Shown here in pieces: positions 6,947 through 20,074 of a stretch of DNA of 38,780 bases. Source of the DNA: Candidatus Schekmanbacteria bacterium RIFCSPLOWO2_02_FULL_38_14 (GTDB lineage Bacteria; Schekmanbacteria; GWA2-38-11). The stretch is taken from contig MGDH01000024.1 of NCBI GenBank assembly GCA_001790855.1, positions 42,165 through 80,944 of the forward strand, in the 5' to 3' direction. A model generated the notes under the pieces. It worked only from the letters and a program-made list of their open reading frames with translations. It did no database searches and had not been told where the DNA came from. Position 1 is the first letter of the stretch. Each line of letters begins with the position of its first letter. The position numbers and the translations under genes are program-made.

Positions 6947-7522
6947 TTGATAGATTTTGATGATTCTCTGCTTGTCCAAAGGTCAAAGGATGGAGATATA
7001 AAAGCCTTTGAAAAGCTTTTTTTAAAATATCAGTCAAAGGTCTATAACTTTACCCTGCGTATGGTACAAAACAGGGAAGATGCTGAAGAGTTAACGCAGG
7101 AATCCTTTGCAAAGGCATATGTATCCATCAGGAGGCTAAGGGAAAATGATGCATTCAAGGGATGGCTAATGAGAATTGCAATAAACACAATCAGAGACAA
7201 ACTAAAATCAGGAAGAGAGGATAAATGGTCTTATAGTGGAATAAAAACTGATTCTGATGAAGATACAAGACAAAATCAGATACCTGATTCATCGTGGAAT
7301 GGAGAAAAAGAGGTTTTGGATAAAGAGCTGAAGAAAATAACCATTGATGCTTTATCATCCCTTACAAGCATCCACAGAGAAGTAATCCTGCTTCACCATT
7401 TTGAATCTCTGAGGGTTGAGGAAATTGCAAAAATCTTACAATTGTCAGAGGGAACAGTAAAATCAAGACTTGCAAGGGGAAGAGAAGCGCTTGTTAAAAA
7501 ACTAAAACCTTATCTTAAATGA
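6947..7522 (+). CDS. ECF-family RNA polymerase sigma factor (RpoE-like)
   Basis: About 191 residues. The region 2 signature is intact: AFEKLFLKYQSKVYNFTLRM, then REDAEELTQESFAKAY with the DAEELTQE core and an FKGWLMRIAINTIRD-type region 2.4. Region 4 ends REVILLHHFESLRVEEIAKI, then LSEGTVKSRLARGREAL, the -35-binding helix-turn-helix. No ATG is available; TTG codons occur at 6941 and 6947, and AGAGGG (6934-6939) gives proper spacing only to 6947. The anti-sigma gene follows after 48 bases. A matching ECF promoter upstream argues for autoregulation. Confidence 0.94.
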   Translation: MIDFDDSLLVQRSKDGDIKAFEKLFLKYQSKVYNFTLRMVQNREDAEELTQESFAKAYVSIRRLRENDAFKGWLMRIAINTIRDKLKSGREDKWSYSGIKTDSDEDTRQNQIPDSSWNGEKEVLDKELKKITIDALSSLTSIHREVILLHHFESLRVEEIAKILQLSEGTVKSRLARGREALVKKLKPYLK

Positions 7523-7570
7523 TGATTATGGCAATTTAAGTAAGATTACGCAGATTAGGGAAATAAAAGA

Positions 7571-8071
7571 ATGAATTGCAAACTGGTAAAGACAAAACTC
7601 TATTATTATTCTGCAGACGCTTTGAGCAGGAAATTACAGACCAAGATTGAAAGGCATCTTTCAGAATGCCCTGTATGCAGGAGTGAATTTGAAGCAATAG
7701 AGAAGGCATTGGAAATTGCTAAAAAACTGCCTCGCGAATCCCCGCCTGCAGGTATGTGGAATGGAGTTCTTTCAAAAATAAATATAGGCAGGAAAATGTT
7801 AAGGAGAGCTAAGGGATGGACCGGGTTTTCAGGAATATGGGAAATAATCAGATTAAAACCTCTCCCTGCAGTTTCAGTATTTGCAATTATAGTACTGTTT
7901 GTTAGCGGGATTTATTTCTTTACAGAATACAGATACCAGACTCCGGAGAAAGAAAACCAAAGTTATTTCAATGAATATATTTCGTTCTCTGCGCAGGACC
8001 CCCTTGCTGATAAAATAGCCATTAACAGAATAATGGCAATCAAATATGCAAACGAGAGAATAGAAAAATGA
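7571..8071 (+). CDS. zinc-finger anti-sigma factor with one membrane segment
   Basis: 166 residues. The N terminus carries the ZAS/zf-HC2 pattern: C3, then H29-x3-C33-x2-C36 (RHLSECPVC), which in this family holds zinc and clamps the partner sigma. A single hydrophobic helix lies at about residues 98-117 (LPAVSVFAIIVLFVSGIYFF), followed by a short, probably periplasmic tail, so it should hold the sigma at the inner membrane. It overlaps the next gene by ATGA (8068-8071), so the two are translationally coupled. The spacer before it contains the GATTACGCAGATTA word. Confidence 0.9.
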   Translation: MNCKLVKTKLYYYSADALSRKLQTKIERHLSECPVCRSEFEAIEKALEIAKKLPRESPPAGMWNGVLSKINIGRKMLRRAKGWTGFSGIWEIIRLKPLPAVSVFAIIVLFVSGIYFFTEYRYQTPEKENQSYFNEYISFSAQDPLADKIAINRIMAIKYANERIEK

Positions 8072-9138
8072 AATTTATATTGAAGAAAATAACAGTTTTT
8101 TTAATTGCCCTCTCAATTACCTTTTACACACACATACCGGCAAGGTGTGAGGATGGAAATGAGATTTTAAAAAAAGCCCTTGAAACAGAAGGAATGGTTG
8201 ATTTATCCGGCTTTTGCTATACAGCATCACTTATGAAACCTTATGAGTTTTCAAACAATGTAAAAGTCTTCTGGAAAAGACCGGGCAAGACCCGTATGGA
8301 ATATTTTTCAGGAAATATTCTGCAGATGATAGTTATAACAACAAAAGATAAATCCATAGAATTCTCACCCGCAGAAAACATAGTCTATATTAAAGAAATA
8401 TCTCCTCAGAAAAAAGAACTGGAAAAAACAAAGCAGAGCCTTCTCTTCTCAAATTATGAAGCTAAGATTGCGGGAAAAGAGACTGTTTCAGGAAGAGATG
8501 CAACTCTGGTAAAAGTCGACTCCAGATACCCTGACAGACCCTCCAAGAAACTCTGGATAGATGATAAAACCGGTACAATACTGAAGTCAGAACAGTACAG
8601 TAGCAGCGGAAACTTAATATTCCTCACATATTTTAAAAAGATAAACTTCAATTCGGTTATAAATGACAGCTTTTTCATGCCTCCTCAGGGAATGTCTGTA
8701 AGAACTGTTTCTGAACCAAAAAAGAAAAACTTTACTCCAGAAGACCTTTCAAAGCTTGTTGGATTTAAAGTAGTTATTCCTTACTCTATACCCGAAGGAT
8801 ATGTGCTTGAAGGCTGTTACGTATATCAGTGCGGTTGCGGAGTTGATATGGCACATATGAGGTTCTTTGATGGACTAAACAGTATTTCAATCTTCGAAGG
8901 AAAAAAAGACTGCCCTGTATGCAGTAAAGATAAAGGAATGGGATTTTTCCGGGGAAGGAGGGGAAGAATGGGTATGGGAAGAGGGCGCGGGATGGGATGT
9001 TCCCCCCGTGAGTGTGAACTTCTGGACAGAAGGCAGGAAAGGGTGATGGCTTTTACAGACAAGGAGATACGTTTTGTCATAATAGGGGACATACCTGAAT
9101 CTGATGCAAACAGAATTGCAGATGGACTGAAAAAATAG
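8068..9138 (+). CDS. RseB/MucB- and LolA-like secreted protein with a Cys- and Arg-Gly-rich tail
   Basis: 356 residues. There is a signal peptide at ~1-26 (KKITVFLIALSITFYTHIPA). Residues ~30-205 resemble the LolA-like domain of RseB/MucB (FWKRPGKTRMEYF, then a KLWIDDKTGTILKSEQY hairpin). The C-terminal part (~225-356) begins like an RseB C-domain (VVIPYSIPEGYVLEGC) but carries Cys at 250, 255, 257, 282, 285, 311 and 316 and a Gly/Arg/Met-rich stretch at 291-310 (GRRGRMGMGRGRGMG). I know no RseB with that insertion; it could bind metal or undergo thiol exchange. Its place after sigma and anti-sigma genes matches RseB, the periplasmic modulator of anti-sigma stability. Confidence 0.8.
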   Translation: MKFILKKITVFLIALSITFYTHIPARCEDGNEILKKALETEGMVDLSGFCYTASLMKPYEFSNNVKVFWKRPGKTRMEYFSGNILQMIVITTKDKSIEFSPAENIVYIKEISPQKKELEKTKQSLLFSNYEAKIAGKETVSGRDATLVKVDSRYPDRPSKKLWIDDKTGTILKSEQYSSSGNLIFLTYFKKINFNSVINDSFFMPPQGMSVRTVSEPKKKNFTPEDLSKLVGFKVVIPYSIPEGYVLEGCYVYQCGCGVDMAHMRFFDGLNSISIFEGKKDCPVCSKDKGMGFFRGRRGRMGMGRGRGMGCSPRECELLDRRQERVMAFTDKEIRFVIIGDIPESDANRIADGLKK

Positions 9139-9150
9139 TAAGATAAAAAG

Positions 9151-10095
9151 ATGCGTTACAAAACACTTAGTAAAAGCGACCTCAAAGTCTCAGTCATTGG
9201 CTTGGGAACATGGGTAATGGGTGGAGAAAACTGGGGCAAGGCTGATGATGCAAAATCCATTGCCACTATCCACAAAGCCATTGACTCAGGAATTAATCTC
9301 ATTGACACAGCCCCTGCTTATGGGAACGGCCATGCAGAAGAGATTGTTGGAAAAGCTATCAGGGGAAAACGCTCACAGCTAATCATTGCCACAAAATGCG
9401 GGATAGACAGGAGAAGCGGTTTTGCCTTCAATTTAAAACCTGAGTTTATCAGAATGGAAATTGAAAATTCCCTGAAACGCCTGAACATAGATGCGATTGA
9501 CCTCTACCAGTGCCACTGGCCTGACCCGTCAACCCCTGTTGAAGATTCAATGAATGAGCTTCTGAAAATGCAGTCTCAGGGAAAAATCCGCTACATAGGA
9601 GTTTCTAACTTTGATGTTCCGCTCCTTGAAAAAGCCATGGAAACAACCCCTCTTGTAAGCGTGCAGCCCCATTATTCCCTGCTTGAAAGAGACATCGAAA
9701 AGAACCTTTTACCATTTTGCAGAGAAAAAAATATTGGAGTTCTAACCTATGGCTCAATAGGAGGAGGAATACTTACAGGCAAATATAAAAAACCTCAGAG
9801 CTTTGGCGGGATGGACGCACGAAACTTTTTCTATGCCTTCTTTAAAGAACCTTACTGGAGTAAAACCCAGAATCTGATTTCAGAGATGAAAGAAATTGCT
9901 GAAAAACACAGGAAACCTCTTGCTCACATAGCAATAAACTGGGTAACACAGCAATCTGGAATTACAAGTGCCCTTGTTGGTGCCCGCACACCTGAACAGA
10001 TTGAAATCAATGCAGGTGCAGGAGAGTGGGAACTGTCTCAAGAAGAACTCCAGCAGATTCAGGATTCTCATAACCGTATCTTTGGCATTCAATAA
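9151..10095 (+). CDS. aldo/keto reductase
   Basis: 314 residues, standard for the NAD(P)-dependent aldo/keto reductase TIM-barrel family. Visible are LGTWVMGGENWG, GINLIDTAPAYGNGHAEEI (catalytic Asp and Tyr), ATKCG (Lys region), DLYQCHWPD (the His position), GVSNF and SVQPHYS. It has the YghZ/YdhF-like layout with C-terminal GARTPEQIEIN. It follows the RseB-like gene by 12 bases and probably shares the sigma-factor transcript, so it may be part of the stress response; the substrate is unknown. The ribosome site is weak. Confidence 0.93.
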   Translation: MRYKTLSKSDLKVSVIGLGTWVMGGENWGKADDAKSIATIHKAIDSGINLIDTAPAYGNGHAEEIVGKAIRGKRSQLIIATKCGIDRRSGFAFNLKPEFIRMEIENSLKRLNIDAIDLYQCHWPDPSTPVEDSMNELLKMQSQGKIRYIGVSNFDVPLLEKAMETTPLVSVQPHYSLLERDIEKNLLPFCREKNIGVLTYGSIGGGILTGKYKKPQSFGGMDARNFFYAFFKEPYWSKTQNLISEMKEIAEKHRKPLAHIAINWVTQQSGITSALVGARTPEQIEINAGAGEWELSQEELQQIQDSHNRIFGIQ

Positions 10096-10181: not shown

Positions 10182-10217
10182 AATAATTGTTAGCTTTTTT
10201 TTAAGGAGGTGAATGGT

Positions 10218-10529
10218 ATGAAAAAGTCTGTAATAGTTTTACTGCTGATAATGGGGCTGATTGCATGGGGTGTGATAGATTATGCAATTGCGAAAGATGA
10301 AAAAGAAACTGCTCAGCCATCACAGGAACAGGCTCAACCCTATCCAGAAACTCCTCAGGGATATTTTGTTCCGGGTGGATGCTGTGGCGGATACTCTGGC
10401 GGCAGAGGTATGATGGGTTATGGCAGGGGCAGTGGCAGATATGCCCAGCCACAGGGAGGTACCGGATGGTTTTGCCCGGGTCCTTACTGGTTTAACCCCC
10501 AACCCCAGCAGGCTCCACAGTCAAAATAA
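10218..10529 (+). CDS. small secreted Gly/Gln/Pro-rich protein
   Basis: 103 residues from the ATG at 10218, set by AAGGAGGTG seven bases upstream; a GTG at 10209 inside that site is rejected. It has a signal peptide at ~1-25 (MKKSVIVLLLIMGLIAWGVI). The mature part has a Gln/Pro stretch (AQPSQEQAQPYPETPQGY), then GGCCGGYSGGRGMMGYGRGSG, and ends in Gln-Pro. One CC pair and one further Cys (WFCPG) could bind metal or form disulfides. No family is recognised. The Gly/Arg/Met composition echoes the tail of the RseB-like protein nearby, and the ECF-type promoter ties it to that regulon. Confidence 0.75.
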   Translation: MKKSVIVLLLIMGLIAWGVIDYAIAKDEKETAQPSQEQAQPYPETPQGYFVPGGCCGGYSGGRGMMGYGRGSGRYAQPQGGTGWFCPGPYWFNPQPQQAPQSK

Positions 10530-11215: not shown

Positions 11216-11692
11216 ATGTCTCTTGAGGAATACAAAAAAAAACGGCGGTTCAGCAAAACCCCGGAACCGGAGGGAGAAGCAAAGAGAAATCCTTCTCAGA
11301 AATTGATTTATGCAATTCAAAAACATGATGCATTGCACCTTCATTATGACTTAAGACTTGAAATCGATGGAGTGCTCAGAAGCTGGGCTGTTCCAAAGGA
11401 ACCACCCAAGGAAGAAGGAACAAAAAGGCTTGCAGTGGAGACAGAAGAGCACCCGGTCGGATATGAGCAGTTTGAAGGCACAATCCCTGAAGGAGAATAT
11501 GGCGCCGGAACTGTTCAGATATGGGATAAGGGAAGTTATGAGTTAGAAGAGATTAAAGATGATAGAATCATCTTTAATATTAATGGAAAGAAACTCTACG
11601 GGGTTTATTGTCTCATAAAGCTCAAGCCAAAGGAAAGGGGTGATAAAAACTGGCTGTTTTTTAAAAAGAAAAATCATACAAAAATAAATTAA
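11216..11692 (+). CDS. stand-alone LigD-type 3'-phosphoesterase domain protein
   Basis: 158 residues. The core motif HDALHLHYDLRLE (H37, H41, H43, D45, R47) matches the DNA-end-processing phosphoesterase module of bacterial LigD, and SWAVPKEPP, LAVETEEHPVGYEQFEGTIP and GEYGAGTVQIWDKG follow as expected. In LigD this domain trims 3'-phosphates and ribonucleotides during non-homologous end joining. Here it is alone, with no ligase, polymerase or Ku in the window. Such single-domain versions are known in bacteria and archaea. The N-terminal 25 residues are basic and polar. Its ribosome site is weak. Confidence 0.9.
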   Translation: MSLEEYKKKRRFSKTPEPEGEAKRNPSQKLIYAIQKHDALHLHYDLRLEIDGVLRSWAVPKEPPKEEGTKRLAVETEEHPVGYEQFEGTIPEGEYGAGTVQIWDKGSYELEEIKDDRIIFNINGKKLYGVYCLIKLKPKERGDKNWLFFKKKNHTKIN

Positions 11693-11851: not shown

Positions 11852-13306
11852 ATGCCTGATGTAATATTGGTTAATCCACTCGGTCTCAAGGTTGTAGGAG
11901 ATAAGACCATGCCAATGGGGTTACTCTGTGTCTCATCTTATGCATCTAAAGATTTCAATATTAAGATAATAGACCAAAGGTTTGAAAAAAAATGGAAACA
12001 ACTTCTTCTTGAGGGAATTAAGAGCAATCCTCTTTGTGTTGGAGTAACCTCTCTTACTGGAAAGCAGATTCTTTCAGCTCTTGAAATAGCAAGCACTGTA
12101 AAAAAACATTCATCAATTCCTGTTGTCTTGGGTGGAGTTCATCCAACCTTTTTGCCTGAGGAGACAATTAAAGATCCATTGGTAGATATACTAATAGAGG
12201 GTGAAGGAGATATTTCATTCCATGAACTTCTCAAAAAGCTTTCATCAAATGCCTCTATAGAAAATATTCCTGGGATATGGTACAAAGATTATGGAAAAAT
12301 AAAGAAAGGACCTCCACCAGTACCTGTTGACATAACAAGATTGCCCCCCATTCCATATGAGCTTATAGATATCAATAAATATATAGAAAATGGGAATTAT
12401 GGTAGGACACTCAGTGTTTTTACTTCAAGAGGATGTCCAAATCGGTGTACTTTCTGCTATAATGTAAAGTTCTTTGACTGTAAATGGAAGGGTTTCTCTG
12501 TAAAGAGATGTTTAGATGAAATAACAAATTTTATAAAGAGTTATAGAATAGAGCATATCCAATTTATGGATGATAATTTCTTTGCTGACATAGAGAGGGG
12601 CAAAGAGATAATCACAAAGATGTATGAAAAAAACCCAGGTATTACTTGGTCTGTGTTTGGTATTCATGTCAAAACCGTGCTTCAAATGGACCTAAACTTT
12701 TTAAAACTTTTGGAAGAGTATGGATGCAAGATTTTTAATATTGGTTCTGAATCCGGATCAGAGAAAATATTAAAATTATTGAATAAAGGATTTACCAAGG
12801 AGGACCTATTGGAATGTAATCGTCATATGTATAAAACTAATATAAAACCCTCTTATAGTTTTATAGTTGGATTCCCTGATGAAACAGATGCTGACATTAA
12901 AGATACCATAGATATTGTATTCCGTTTAAAAGAAGAAAATCCAAATGTGATATATGGTTCAATAAAACCTTTTGTCTCTTTTCCAGGAACCGCTTTATAT
13001 TCTTTATGTCTGAAAAAAGGCTTTACTCCACCTGATACCTTAAAAAAATGGGGAAATTATAGTTGGCATAACTATTTAAAAATTGATATCCCTTGGGCAG
13101 ATAGAAAAAAGAGACAATGGCTGTCTGATTTATATTTTACCTCGATAGTAATGAATCCTGACCATCTTTTTGTCAGATCTAAGGTTTTTAAATTTATAGT
13201 TAAGTTTATGAAACCGTCAATGGAAAAAAGAGTAAAGACATTAAAAGTTGGCACCTTTCCTCTGATTGCAAGAACACTATCCTTTATTCAAAACCACATT
13301 CTCTAA
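11852..13306 (+). CDS. B12-binding radical SAM protein
   Basis: 484 residues. The N-terminal ~1-140 is a cobalamin-binding-like Rossmann domain (ILVNPL, GVTSLTGKQ, VVLGGVHPTFLPEE, DILIEGEGD). The radical SAM core begins at ~187 with C195-P-N-R-C199-T-F-C202, followed by FMDDNFFAD and NIGSESGSEKILKLLNKG, typical of the BchE/MagE-like class. The C-terminal ~90 residues are family-specific. Enzymes of this class methylate or rearrange lipids, sugars or cofactors. A glycosyltransferase gene follows after 4 bases, so a role in making a surface glycolipid or modifying a lipid carrier is plausible, by context only. GGAG precedes the ATG. Confidence 0.93.
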   Translation: MPDVILVNPLGLKVVGDKTMPMGLLCVSSYASKDFNIKIIDQRFEKKWKQLLLEGIKSNPLCVGVTSLTGKQILSALEIASTVKKHSSIPVVLGGVHPTFLPEETIKDPLVDILIEGEGDISFHELLKKLSSNASIENIPGIWYKDYGKIKKGPPPVPVDITRLPPIPYELIDINKYIENGNYGRTLSVFTSRGCPNRCTFCYNVKFFDCKWKGFSVKRCLDEITNFIKSYRIEHIQFMDDNFFADIERGKEIITKMYEKNPGITWSVFGIHVKTVLQMDLNFLKLLEEYGCKIFNIGSESGSEKILKLLNKGFTKEDLLECNRHMYKTNIKPSYSFIVGFPDETDADIKDTIDIVFRLKEENPNVIYGSIKPFVSFPGTALYSLCLKKGFTPPDTLKKWGNYSWHNYLKIDIPWADRKKRQWLSDLYFTSIVMNPDHLFVRSKVFKFIVKFMKPSMEKRVKTLKVGTFPLIARTLSFIQNHIL

Positions 13307-13310
13307 GCTT

Positions 13311-14030
13311 ATGGCAAAACCTCTTATAATAGTACCGACATTTAACGAACGAAAGAATATTAGACAGCTTGTGGATGAAATAATGAGGTTATATAATGAT
13401 TTTCATATCGTTATTGTGGATGATGACTCTAAGGATGGGACTGCTGAAGTAATTGATGAGCTTTCTTCAAGATACAAAGGGAAGGTATATCTAATCCATA
13501 GAAAAGGGAAAAGAGGGTTTGGAAGCGCTTCTATTGCTGGAATGAAGTTTGGTTTAAAGAATGGCTATGATCTAATTCTCACTATGGACGCTGACTTATC
13601 ACATCAACCAATCTATCTTAAAGACTTCCTATCAGCAATTTCTGAAAATGATTTGGTTATTGGTTCAAGATATACAAGAGGAATAAGCATAGTAAACTGG
13701 TCTTTGAAAAGATTGATGTTAAGTCTTTGGGCAAATATGTATATCAAAGCTATCATACGGATAAAGATATCTGATTTTACATCTGGCTATAGATGCTGGA
13801 AAAGGGAGATATTAGAAAAAATAAATCTTGATAATATAATGTCAGAGGGTTATGCTTTTCTTGTTGAAATGGTATATAGAGCGTATAAGCTTGACGCTAG
13901 GATTAAGGAAATACCCATAATTTTTGTCGAAAGAGAAATAGGAAAATCTAAGATAAACAAAAAAGTCCTCCTTGAATCCGTCCTCATGCCATGGAAGCTG
14001 GTAATCAAAAATATATTAAAAAAATTATAG
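13311..14030 (+). CDS. GT2 glycosyltransferase, dolichol-phosphate mannose synthase-like
   Basis: 239 residues from the ATG at 13311 (MAKPLIIVPTFNERKNI), 4 bases after the radical SAM stop; the frame is open to 13266, but that would overlap the upstream gene. GT2 motifs are IVIVDDDSKDGTAEV, LTMDADLSHQP (DAD metal site), VIGSRYTRG and DFTSGYRCW. It lacks the C-terminal membrane helices of longer homologues, like the simple DPMS/ArnC-type catalytic domain. The expected reaction is transfer of a sugar from NDP-sugar to polyprenyl phosphate. A GT-C enzyme that could use such a lipid-linked sugar is encoded convergently next door, with a 6-base 3' overlap. Confidence 0.93.
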   Translation: MAKPLIIVPTFNERKNIRQLVDEIMRLYNDFHIVIVDDDSKDGTAEVIDELSSRYKGKVYLIHRKGKRGFGSASIAGMKFGLKNGYDLILTMDADLSHQPIYLKDFLSAISENDLVIGSRYTRGISIVNWSLKRLMLSLWANMYIKAIIRIKISDFTSGYRCWKREILEKINLDNIMSEGYAFLVEMVYRAYKLDARIKEIPIIFVEREIGKSKINKKVLLESVLMPWKLVIKNILKKL

Positions 14031-16328
14031 TGCCTCCCCTGATATGGAGCTCAGTTCCTCTTTAAACCCTTTTTCTACTAATGGTTTATATAAAGGGTCT
14101 AATTCCTTTAATATTGAATTTGCGTCACTTTCATTATCACCAAATCTAAAAGCTATCCGGGCGCCAACCCCTTCATAAAAATATTGAAGATACTTTTTAT
14201 TTAATGAATTGGAAAATTTAAATATTTCAGAGAAATGGAAGCCATATCTTTCAGCCATATACCTTCCAAGACCTCTGTAAGCTGAGATTCTCTCTTTGCT
14301 CTCAAGTTTATCAATCTCATCCCTTATTGAATTTGCTCTGTTGCGGTAGTAAAACCCGATTGCTGAGCCAGCGCCCTCATAAAAAGCGTCTCTGAAATTT
14401 GCCGGAACAAAAAACCATTTCATTGTTTTTTCAAAATCGTCGGTTTTATAATGTGAATAATATTTAAAAAGAAAAGCTCCGGCTTCATAGTATAGATAAA
14501 ACTGGTTTTTTTTATCTGTTTTTTCAATTGCAAGTTCAAATGAATCAAGGCTCATTTTTTTCAGATAATATTCTCCAAGGGAAATATAGAAAAATCTTCT
14601 GTATTTTTCATCAACTGCTGAAACAATTCTTGGAATATCAGTATCTTCACGGCAGTTTTCATTTATTACAATTGACATTCCAAGATAGGCATATGGTTTG
14701 TACTTTTCATCTATCTTCTCTATCCCTTTAATACATTTCTCATACTGGTTATACACAGAGTTAAATCCAACATTATATCCAATGCCCTGGTAATAGTAGC
14801 TTCTGTGTTTTGGGTTGACATCTTCTGCTAATTTATAGATATTTTTAAATTCTTTAAATTTTTTTACCCACACTAGTCCCCTTCCTCCTACGCTCCATCC
14901 TATCCCGTGATAATATAGATGTCTGAAAACAGGGTTAATCTTATCTCCAAGCTCAAAGTATTTCTTATAGTCAAGATCAAACTTTGTAACTGTTGTCCAA
15001 CCGAGCCTTTCATAAGAATATCCATCGAGGTTGCGATAGGTCGGTATCCTGTCATAAGAAGGAATTTTTGCGCTGCCAAAAAGACCTAAGAAAAGAAGTA
15101 TTATAAGAAGAAGTATTAATGGAATATTTTTTGATTCTTTGATGTCAAACTTAGAAAAAAACAAGGAAAAAATGATGAAGATGAACGGATAAAGAGGAAT
15201 AAAGTACCTGTATGTGAGATATCTGTCTTCCAGAGTAGAAAAGATTGATACATTGCTTAAGAAAAACATAACTGAGAAAATAACAGGAACAGCAAGAAAA
15301 AAAAGTTCTTTTGAAAAACTCTCTGGAATAAGACGGTATTTTCTTGAAGGTGGTAATGCCTTTATCAATTGTATGAACGAATGTCTCTCAATGTAGAGAA
15401 TAAAAAAAAATGCTGTCAGAAAAATAAAGTAATAAAAATAAGGAAGCACGGCAATTCCAAAAATTTTTGCCTGGTGAAAATCAAAAAGCGCCGGAAGGTC
15501 ATAGGTAAAATATTTTACTGCTTTTTCAAAAACCTGATTTTTAGCTTCAGGATATCCCCAGTATTTCTTGACTATGTTCATCCCTTTAAATGAATTGATC
15601 CAGTTATAATATAACCATGGAGAAAATCCTGCAAGGAACGAGACTGAGAAGATTAAAAAATATTTTTTCAAAAAGAACATTTTGTCAAAAAGATACCAGA
15701 AAAAAAGGCATGAAATAAGGCAGTATAAAGTAATGTATGCAAAATACAGGGAGAAGCCGCAGGATAATCCAAAGGCAATAAACAAAAGATAAGATTTTTT
15801 CTGGTTGCCAAGATAGTAGCTTTTTCCTGAAAAGAAAATTTCATAAAAAATCAAGATAGTGAACATTGAAAGAGAGATTGACTCAGCATGCGCTCCCCAA
15901 GCAATAAGGGTTGATTCTGTGTATGTGGAGGGCGAGAAGAGGAAAAATAAACCTGCAATAATGGCAGTTCTCCTGCTGAAGTAGAGGTTAAGGAGTATGA
16001 GGCAAAAAATGAGGCTCAGGGTGGAGAATAACAGAGCCACAAGTTTAAGAGAAAAGTAGGAATTGCCAAAAAGCTTGAAAAAAACTGCTGCTAAAACTCC
16101 GACAACTATTGTTCCTCCATTATGAGGAGTATACTGGTAGTCAAGGAGGGGCAGGTTTAAGCCTTGAAGAATTTCCATGGCAATAGTGCCATTGTAGAGT
16201 TCTTCATCATTCCACATGAAGATTCCCCTGTCCAGCACCCATAGTCTTGAAATGATAAAAAAAAGGACAATAAGAAGAAAGATACCTTTATCTTTAAAAA
16301 AAGATACTCTGGTATTGGTTTGAGGCAT
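14025..16328 (-). CDS. GT-C membrane glycosyltransferase fused to about nine ~35-residue repeats
   Basis: 767 residues. Residues ~12-420 form a polytopic GT39/PMT-like core: about ten to twelve hydrophobic helices, with the acidic MWNDEELYNG motif in the first outer loop (D41/E42), the usual metal/substrate site of GT-C enzymes. From ~430 the protein is soluble and built of repeats whose motif [YF]-x-x-G-[IVLA]-G recurs near residues 440, 475, 515, 549, 583, 615, 651, 686 and 720, a period of 32-40. Each is preceded by a [VIL]-[DN]-x-x-Y/F-[KR] segment (such as DKINPVFRH, EDVNPKHRS, EKIDEKYKP). The pattern suggests a TPR-like superhelix, but it is not a TPR or Sel1 consensus I know. The start follows MPQTNTR; the ribosome site is weak. 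Confidence 0.85.
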   Translation of the reverse strand: MPQTNTRVSFFKDKGIFLLIVLFFIISRLWVLDRGIFMWNDEELYNGTIAMEILQGLNLPLLDYQYTPHNGGTIVVGVLAAVFFKLFGNSYFSLKLVALLFSTLSLIFCLILLNLYFSRRTAIIAGLFFLFSPSTYTESTLIAWGAHAESISLSMFTILIFYEIFFSGKSYYLGNQKKSYLLFIAFGLSCGFSLYFAYITLYCLISCLFFWYLFDKMFFLKKYFLIFSVSFLAGFSPWLYYNWINSFKGMNIVKKYWGYPEAKNQVFEKAVKYFTYDLPALFDFHQAKIFGIAVLPYFYYFIFLTAFFFILYIERHSFIQLIKALPPSRKYRLIPESFSKELFFLAVPVIFSVMFFLSNVSIFSTLEDRYLTYRYFIPLYPFIFIIFSLFFSKFDIKESKNIPLILLLIILLFLGLFGSAKIPSYDRIPTYRNLDGYSYERLGWTTVTKFDLDYKKYFELGDKINPVFRHLYYHGIGWSVGGRGLVWVKKFKEFKNIYKLAEDVNPKHRSYYYQGIGYNVGFNSVYNQYEKCIKGIEKIDEKYKPYAYLGMSIVINENCREDTDIPRIVSAVDEKYRRFFYISLGEYYLKKMSLDSFELAIEKTDKKNQFYLYYEAGAFLFKYYSHYKTDDFEKTMKWFFVPANFRDAFYEGAGSAIGFYYRNRANSIRDEIDKLESKERISAYRGLGRYMAERYGFHFSEIFKFSNSLNKKYLQYFYEGVGARIAFRFGDNESDANSILKELDPLYKPLVEKGFKEELSSISGEAL

Positions 16329-18841: not shown

Positions 18842-19969
18842 TCAACTCATAGACTCCAGAGAGTCTTTGATTTCTTTTTTAACACCCGCATCCTGCTCTT
18901 TTTTCAGAGCCTTTTCAAGCCCTGTTTTTGAGCCTGCACCCTTGATTTTACCAAGTGCCCAAGAAGAATATTCTCTTACAACATCCTCGCCATTTTCAAG
19001 AGCGTCAAGAAGCGAAGCAGTCGCCCTTTCATCAGAAAAATTTCCAAGTGCTATTGCAGCGTTCCTCTGGAGATATTTTTTCTCAACAAGGAAAAATCCG
19101 AACAGTGTCGGGGCATATTTGTTTTCCCATTGCTCATCTGAAATAGAAAGTATTGATGTCAGTTCAGGCGAAATAATATCATCCGGAATATTTCCGTGCT
19201 CAACAGGTTTCAGGTTCCTGTTATAGGGGCAGACGTCTCTGCATATCCTGCACCCTTCGCCAAGGAGGTTGCCTCCTGCATCGCGGATTTCCTTCGGGAG
19301 ATATCCTTTGTTATGTCCAAAATTAAAGTCAATACATTTTCTCACATCACAAAAATATGGTTTTTCAAGCGCTCCTGTCGGGCAGGCTTCAATGCAGAGA
19401 GTACATTCTCCGCAGCCATCCTTTAATGGCTCATCAGGCTCCATTTCCGCATCAGTTATAAAAGCAGAAAGGGAAATCCATGCACCGAGCTTATTGTTCT
19501 GGATAACTGCATTTTTTCCGTATCTTCCAACACCACATTCTGATGCCTTTAACTTTATCGGGAAACCTCCTGCTGCAAGAGAAGAGCACTGGTAGCCCCT
19601 TTTTTTTAAAAAATCTTCTATTTCAGAAGACCTCTTTGCGCTTTTACCTAAAAAATCCGAATCAACATGGCTTTCTTCCACATAACCAAGGAGCCTCCTT
19701 TTTGCCTTTTCCATATCAGAACCTTTGCCAAAGTATGAATTAGTTCCTGTAACAATAACTGATTTTGCACCAGAAAGAAAATCCTCAGGTTGGTAGATGT
19801 TTGCATCTCCCCCTGCAATTGGTGTTGACTTGGCAAAAACCTCTCTCATAATCCTGATTCTTTCGCAATCCTCATTGCTGTAATTATCAGCAGAGGCTAT
19901 CCCGACTTCATCAACACCGAGTTTCTCCAGTGCAAATTCTTTTAGTTCTTTTTTTAGAGAATTATTCAT
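18842..19969 (-). CDS. QueG-like double 4Fe-4S protein with C-terminal HEAT repeats
   Basis: 375 residues from the ATG at 19969 (a TTG directly before it is rejected). It has the architecture of epoxyqueuosine reductase: a cobalamin-binding region (~60-170, GAKSVIVTGTN, LAAGGFPIKLKASECGVGRYGKNA), two [4Fe-4S] sites (C186/189/192/196 and C240/243/247 with a distal Cys), and HEAT-like repeats (RNAAIALGNFSDERAT, REYSSWALGKI) at ~300-375. The N-terminal stretch MREVFAKSTPIAGGDANIYQ is unlike classic QueG, so this is probably a paralogue with a different substrate. It is encoded upstream of the ferredoxin-AOR pair on the same strand, which suggests an Fe-S redox partner. No clear ribosome site. 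Confidence 0.85.
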   Translation of the reverse strand: MNNSLKKELKEFALEKLGVDEVGIASADNYSNEDCERIRIMREVFAKSTPIAGGDANIYQPEDFLSGAKSVIVTGTNSYFGKGSDMEKAKRRLLGYVEESHVDSDFLGKSAKRSSEIEDFLKKRGYQCSSLAAGGFPIKLKASECGVGRYGKNAVIQNNKLGAWISLSAFITDAEMEPDEPLKDGCGECTLCIEACPTGALEKPYFCDVRKCIDFNFGHNKGYLPKEIRDAGGNLLGEGCRICRDVCPYNRNLKPVEHGNIPDDIISPELTSILSISDEQWENKYAPTLFGFFLVEKKYLQRNAAIALGNFSDERATASLLDALENGEDVVREYSSWALGKIKGAGSKTGLEKALKKEQDAGVKKEIKDSLESMS

Positions 19970-20074
19970 CAATAAATTTAATCAATACAGACTGCTTTCA
20001 GCCCGCATTAGATAACATTTTGATATCTTTTATTAAAGAAAACGAATTTAGTCAAACAATAATTAAGAGAGATG

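Follow-up and report, generated by a model that had tools for sequence, protein, structure and literature searches.

The window, that is, the whole stretch of 38,780 nucleotides analyzed here from Candidatus Schekmanbacteria bacterium RIFCSPLOWO2_02_FULL_38_14, carries on its reverse strand an open reading frame of 767 amino acids (14025-16328), which is predicted to encode a GT-C glycosyltransferase. Residues 1-426 (15051..16328, reverse strand) constitute the N-terminal GT-C module with 11 predicted transmembrane helices, as delineated by a PMT_2 match (E 1.8e-5), Foldseek, a positive-inside test, and column conservation, and residues 427-767 are encoded by 14028-15050. This tail is composed of nine contiguous helical-hairpin units of 32-40 residues (residues 437-749; 14082..15020, reverse strand; unit HMM, shuffle tests, and AlphaFold2) and a C-terminal capping helix equivalent to half a unit (residues 750-767; 14028..14081, reverse strand), the latter being the last helix in the models of both the tail (H322-337) and the full-length protein (H748-763). 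On the forward strand, a gene for a GT2 glycosyltransferase akin to polyprenyl-phosphate sugar synthases, its best curated matches (13266..14030; PF00535, E 2.3e-29; AglJ/PpgS/ArnC-like in NCBIfam, below the cut-offs), is arranged tail-to-tail with the GT-C gene, and the two genes overlap by 6 bp. A B12 radical SAM gene (11852-13306) is located just upstream of the GT2 gene. Also found on the forward strand of the window were a LigD-type 3'-phosphoesterase domain (PF13298) standing alone without the ligase (11216-11692) and two proteins with glycine/arginine/methionine-rich low-complexity stretches (8068-9138 and 10209-10529), for example, GRRGRMGMGRGRGMGC and GGCCGGYSGGRGMMGYGRGSGRY.

The repeat in the tail was described with an HMM that was iterated from the units of the window protein itself and then run on the family. 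The unit borders thus obtained are 437-470, 471-510, 511-545, 546-578, 579-610, 611-645, 648-681, 682-715, and 716-749, in agreement with the original prediction of about nine units of 32-40 residues, and the best-scoring units are canonical 34-mers. When 93 units including those of Omnitrophota members were compiled, the 34-residue consensus was YFYEGLGREIGERFGYDIKKIIKIIEKIDEEYRP, in which position 3 is aromatic in 98% of the units, position 7 is Gly, Ala, or Ser in 95%, and position 33 is Lys or Arg in 86%; the pattern can be written as Y-x-Y-E-G-[LI]-G-x-x-[IL]-[GA]-x-R-F ... I-x-K-I-D-x-x-Y-[RK]. Units 4-6 are degenerate, and the sixth unit scored only 5.5 bits. Ungapped self-similarity of the tail peaked at lags of 68 (z 6.3), 34 (z 3.3), and 102 residues (z 3.1); in shuffled sequences, the highest z over all lags had a 99th percentile of 3.9. 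Furthermore, an HMM whose units came solely from Omnitrophota gave 55.6 bits on the window tail versus 10.6 bits or less in 5000 shuffles, and the score of the transmembrane half with the same HMM was -0.6 bits. The motifs noticed originally are therefore present, but the Y/F-R/K element, which had been regarded as a separate segment, is the end of a unit right before the next Y-x-x-G-x-G, and one long helix holds both in the model. Aromatic residues amount to 19.6% of the tail; this richness would be compatible with glycan binding, while many of such positions look like core packing.

Indeed, the tail was modeled by AlphaFold2 as a wholly helical solenoid (mean pLDDT 81.6, pTM 0.84), as had been anticipated from the regular spacing, although the underlying alignment had six rows with the middle in poor register, leaving units 2 and 4-6 unsure in detail. 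Helix A, which is about 18 residues long and has a GxG core, covers YRxxFYEGxGxxxAxRF and alternates with helix B, which has 8-10 residues. No match at E <= 0.001 was found when the tail model was compared by Foldseek with the PDB and a viral library. Chains of the 26S proteasome gave the highest TM-scores, yet these were only 0.35-0.37 and too weak for the chains to be taken as relatives. A search of the tail sequence against PDB sequences returned matches only to Borealin, which we take as chance.

The assignment of the N-terminal half to GT-C, already made from the sequence at the outset, was corroborated in several ways. While the PMT_2 match of the window protein (25.5 bits) is 0.6 bits below the Pfam cut-off of 26.1 bits, that of a paralogue (L022:5778-8060) is above it. 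The full-length model (pTM 0.75, from a shallow alignment of eight rows) hit ArnT best among PDB entries, together with PglB, ALG12, AglB, STT3, Pmt4, and AftB, with Foldseek probabilities near 1.00 and modest E-values of 2e-3 at best. The Foldseek probabilities and the PMT_2 match of the paralogue are thus those of a polytopic membrane module with the fold of the GT-C superfamily, and segments of this module are conserved across the paralogues. In the extracytoplasmic loops, we noticed an acidic residue in EL1 (E43), H147/E149 in EL2, K269 in EL4, and an arginine in EL5 (R374). E43 is kept in 25 of 27 members and R374 in 22 of 27, and counterparts of these two, an EL1 acid and an EL5 arginine, have been described for GT-C enzymes (PMC7801869). 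The topology of 11 transmembrane helices is our own assignment from hydropathy, model helices, and loop charge rather than the output of a dedicated predictor, and residues 74-87 were taken as a juxtamembrane helix in the first outer loop. In all of the 12 members compared, Lys and Arg account for a fraction of 0.20-0.32 in the loops assigned to the cytosol versus 0.07-0.11 in the outside loops, and this bias places the tail outside. The solenoid is, therefore, likely to be extracytoplasmic and on the active-site side of the membrane, a point that the original prediction had left open between periplasm and cytosol.

The window genome encodes about nine full or near-full relatives of this protein, and matches to the family were present in all four Schekmanbacteria genomes examined (including a relative of 62% identity in Candidatus Schekmanbacteria GWA2_38_11) and in 6 of 285 sampled Omnitrophota genomes. 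No convincing score was obtained in approximately 380 other genomes scanned; phages searched with the window tail, plasmids searched with an Omnitrophota tail, and genome contigs searched with the window tail as a single-protein query gave no match. The tails from Schekmanbacteria and Omnitrophota were aligned over 317 columns with an hhalign probability of 99.6%. In the tree of the GT-C half, most paralogues of genome G000 pair with one from genome G002, so much of the duplication is older than those genera; the copies of Omnitrophota and Schekmanbacteria were not cleanly split, and the deep forks are weak. In all of the intact genes examined, the repeat was fused to GT-C. Units apart from GT-C were also sought: across the four Schekmanbacteria genomes, each match with E <= 0.001 belonged to a family member or a fragment thereof. 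The number of units differs from about nine in the type of the window protein to about five in another (the C11 type). In a paralogue of 1091 residues in the window genome (L022:11519-14791, reverse strand, contig C10), GT-C and the repeat precede a de-N-acetylase domain of the PIG-L/LmbE type (E 9.6e-22). Another paralogue (L104/L040; contig C44 of genome G001) occurs as two neighboring open frames (199 and 252 residues), which might reflect a damaged copy or an error of assembly.

In genome G002, the orthologous GT-C gene is followed after 11 bp by an orthologue of the GT2 gene (L028:9095-9814, 52.5% identity), and both are read in one direction. The adjacency of GT-C and GT2 is hence kept in two genera although their relative orientation differs, and its survival of rearrangement argues that the two are a functional pair, in which the adjacent GT2 is probably the maker of the donor lipid. 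A block of aldehyde ferredoxin oxidoreductase, ferredoxin, and a QueG-like iron-sulfur protein ending in HEAT repeats (Fer4_16; 18842-19972 on the reverse strand of the window) is also conserved next to the GT-C gene in three genera, with another arrangement in G002. In different genomes, sulfatase-family genes directly adjoin several paralogues (L024:9116-12035; L029:12092-13471; L101:3326-4675 and 7265-9313), PF00884 being confirmed for three of them, and further neighbors of paralogues include other GT-C and GT2 genes and asparagine synthetase (named by sequence). In three loci of Omnitrophota (L091, L093, and L095), the GT-C-repeat genes belong to clusters that also encode several B12-binding radical SAM proteins, a long protein with TPR and GDSL, GT2, and UDP-galactopyranose mutase. 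Among the neighborhoods compared, there was no partner gene common to all paralogues, and no GtrA-type flippase was recognized beside the GT-C-repeat genes.

What kind of repeat forms the tail then needs to be considered, given that no family in Pfam, NCBIfam, or PHROG covers it. A period of 34 residues and a helical hairpin are shared with TPR and PPR, designed PPRs and TPR proteins are among the best Foldseek matches of the tail, and a real TPR array scored 26 against the tail profile versus 14 for shuffled profiles, albeit with a probability of 2.7%; the repeat might accordingly be a strongly diverged TPR or PPR, in which case the repeat would not be new and the protein would be a TMTC-type GT-C with a TPR tail in a bacterium. 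We nonetheless consider this unlikely. In none of the members scanned did Pfam profiles of TPR, Sel1, or PPR match, even at E-values up to 10, the TPR HMM scored 2.9 bits on the tail, and hhalign between the unit and the TPR unit aligned only three columns with a probability of 1.4%, whereas true TPRs of neighboring genes were recognized at once. These results bear out the original view that the consensus is neither TPR nor Sel1, and the short helix B, the long helix A, and the GxG core would also set the unit apart. A far better match than TPR was given by DUF1702 (PF08012), to which a resemblance had been suggested. In a search of seven tails against Pfam at E up to 10, where only scattered weak matches were found, DUF1702 appeared in one member with an E-value of 0.12, below the Pfam cut-off of 25 bits, and PF08012 had no match in the window genome; the resemblance is thus evident only at the level of profiles. 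There, the similarity was insignificant with three DUF1702 sequences, which changed when twelve were gathered. The unit HMM scored up to 13.2 bits on these proteins versus a shuffle maximum of 6.5, and hhalign between DUF1702 and an alignment of 12 tails, both being small and hand-built profiles, gave a probability of 71.7% and a score of 44.1 over 198 columns, compared with 13.9 +/- 2.4 (maximum 24.2) for column-shuffled and 23.4 for reversed controls. Additional alignments were obtained in other repeat registers, and the probability was 43-49% in the reverse direction, the range in all being 42-72%. In its C-terminal half, DUF1702 has [YF]xxG[hydrophobic]G elements about 33-34 residues apart like our repeat, but it also has strongly conserved Trp/Phe positions and longer linkers, both of which are absent from the tail repeat, and no fusion with GT-C was seen in the records inspected. 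In Streptomyces plasmids, DUF1702 is annotated by CRTAC1/VCBS-repeat genes and cytochrome P450. Among the families listed, DUF1702 is thus the nearest to the repeat. The similarity is suggestive and common descent is plausible, with convergent selection for GxG helix packing as a possible alternative. With due reserve, we can go further and envisage a new class of extracytoplasmic alpha-solenoid repeats (34 residues with a long GxG helix A and a short helix B) that includes DUF1702 and that GT-C enzymes took up as a ruler for the choice of acceptors, the number of units varying among paralogues and setting the acceptor specificity; this wider proposal is speculative, and we hold it to be rather doubtful. 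A profile is now available for a repeat that had been unlisted, and the model provides a first structural hypothesis for DUF1702.

GT-C enzymes use lipid-linked sugar donors at an outward-facing active site. Our favored reading, to which we give a probability of roughly 55%, is that the window protein is an ArnT/PMT-like extracytoplasmic GT-C glycosyltransferase with a nine-hairpin solenoid outside, which is fed by the adjacent GT2 and captures its acceptor with the solenoid. In favor of it are the nine units, the solenoid model, the GT-C matches, the loop charge, E43/R374, the adjacency of GT2, the fusion with PIG-L, and the neighboring sulfatases, GT2/GT-C genes, and UDP-galactopyranose mutase. 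The present data show the repeat, its fusion to GT-C, the family with its distribution, and the conserved neighborhood of GT2, along with a solenoid by prediction and a topology that fits the outside; from these, we infer catalysis, the donor, and an acceptor to which the solenoid would bind. Against it, we count the PMT_2 match below the cut-off, the modest Foldseek E-values, and the shallow alignments for the models. Alpha solenoids, moreover, most often bind proteins, and the tail of an active GT-C might instead be a scaffold on which partner proteins such as a flippase, a polymerase, or a hydrolase are docked. The varied neighbors of the paralogues (sulfatases, other GT-C proteins, asparagine synthetase, and B12 radical SAM proteins) and the different numbers of units would fit such a scaffold, but the lack of a partner gene shared by all paralogues and the position of the tail on the active-site side speak against it, and we regard a docking role as a possible but less probable explanation. 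It is also conceivable that the membrane module is no longer catalytic and merely anchors a binding or sensing solenoid in the periplasm, given that two distant Omnitrophota members lack the equivalent of E43 in the alignment; this appears very improbable, however, because most members keep E43 and R374, the membrane-module segments are conserved across paralogues, and a donor-type GT2 adjoins the GT-C gene. Returning to a catalytic GT-C with an acceptor-capturing solenoid, the biology of GT-C enzymes and the pairing of GT2 with GT-C in multi-component systems (PMC8035078) lead us to propose that the adjacent GT2 would load a sugar on polyprenyl phosphate at the cytosolic side, the sugar-lipid would be flipped across the membrane by a putative flippase, and the GT-C module would pass the sugar to an acceptor held by the solenoid next to the active site. 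Paralogues with other numbers of units may serve other acceptors, and such differences make a hypothesis on solenoid length or specificity directly testable.

In multi-component transmembrane glycosylation, a GT-A/GT2 enzyme, a flippase, and a GT-C enzyme work together (PMC8035078), and the window resembles these systems in having a GT2 of the polyprenyl-phosphate sugar type by GT-C; unlike them, where the flippase is part of the system, the present family has the repeat tail and no adjacent GtrA-type flippase was recognized. ArnT (PDB 5ezm and 5f15), the best match among solved structures, and other PMT-type GT-C enzymes have the fold, the EL1 acid, and the EL5 arginine in common with the window protein, whereas ArnT has no solenoid tail. 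A parallel in the overall layout is human TMTC1-4, O-mannosyltransferases with DUF1736, in which 11 transmembrane segments, JM1-JM3, and about ten C-terminal TPRs in the ER lumen have been described with ArnT as the nearest template (PMC7801869). The topology predicted for the window protein coincides with the published one: an 11-helix GT-C module with a cytosolic N terminus and ArnT as the nearest structure, followed by an array of helical-hairpin repeats (about ten in TMTC) on the non-cytosolic side. The tail of TMTC is nonetheless TPR, whereas that of the window protein is not by profile and belongs to a family of bacterial paralogues; furthermore, no match to DUF1736 (PF08409), which together with a TPR tail marks TMTC, was found in the Pfam scan of the full protein. 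The window protein is hence TMTC-like in its predicted layout but is not a TMTC member as judged by its sequence. As a bacterial counterpart of TMTC with an unrelated-looking repeat, it suggests that the combination of a GT-C active site with a helical acceptor-binding rod evolved on more than one occasion.
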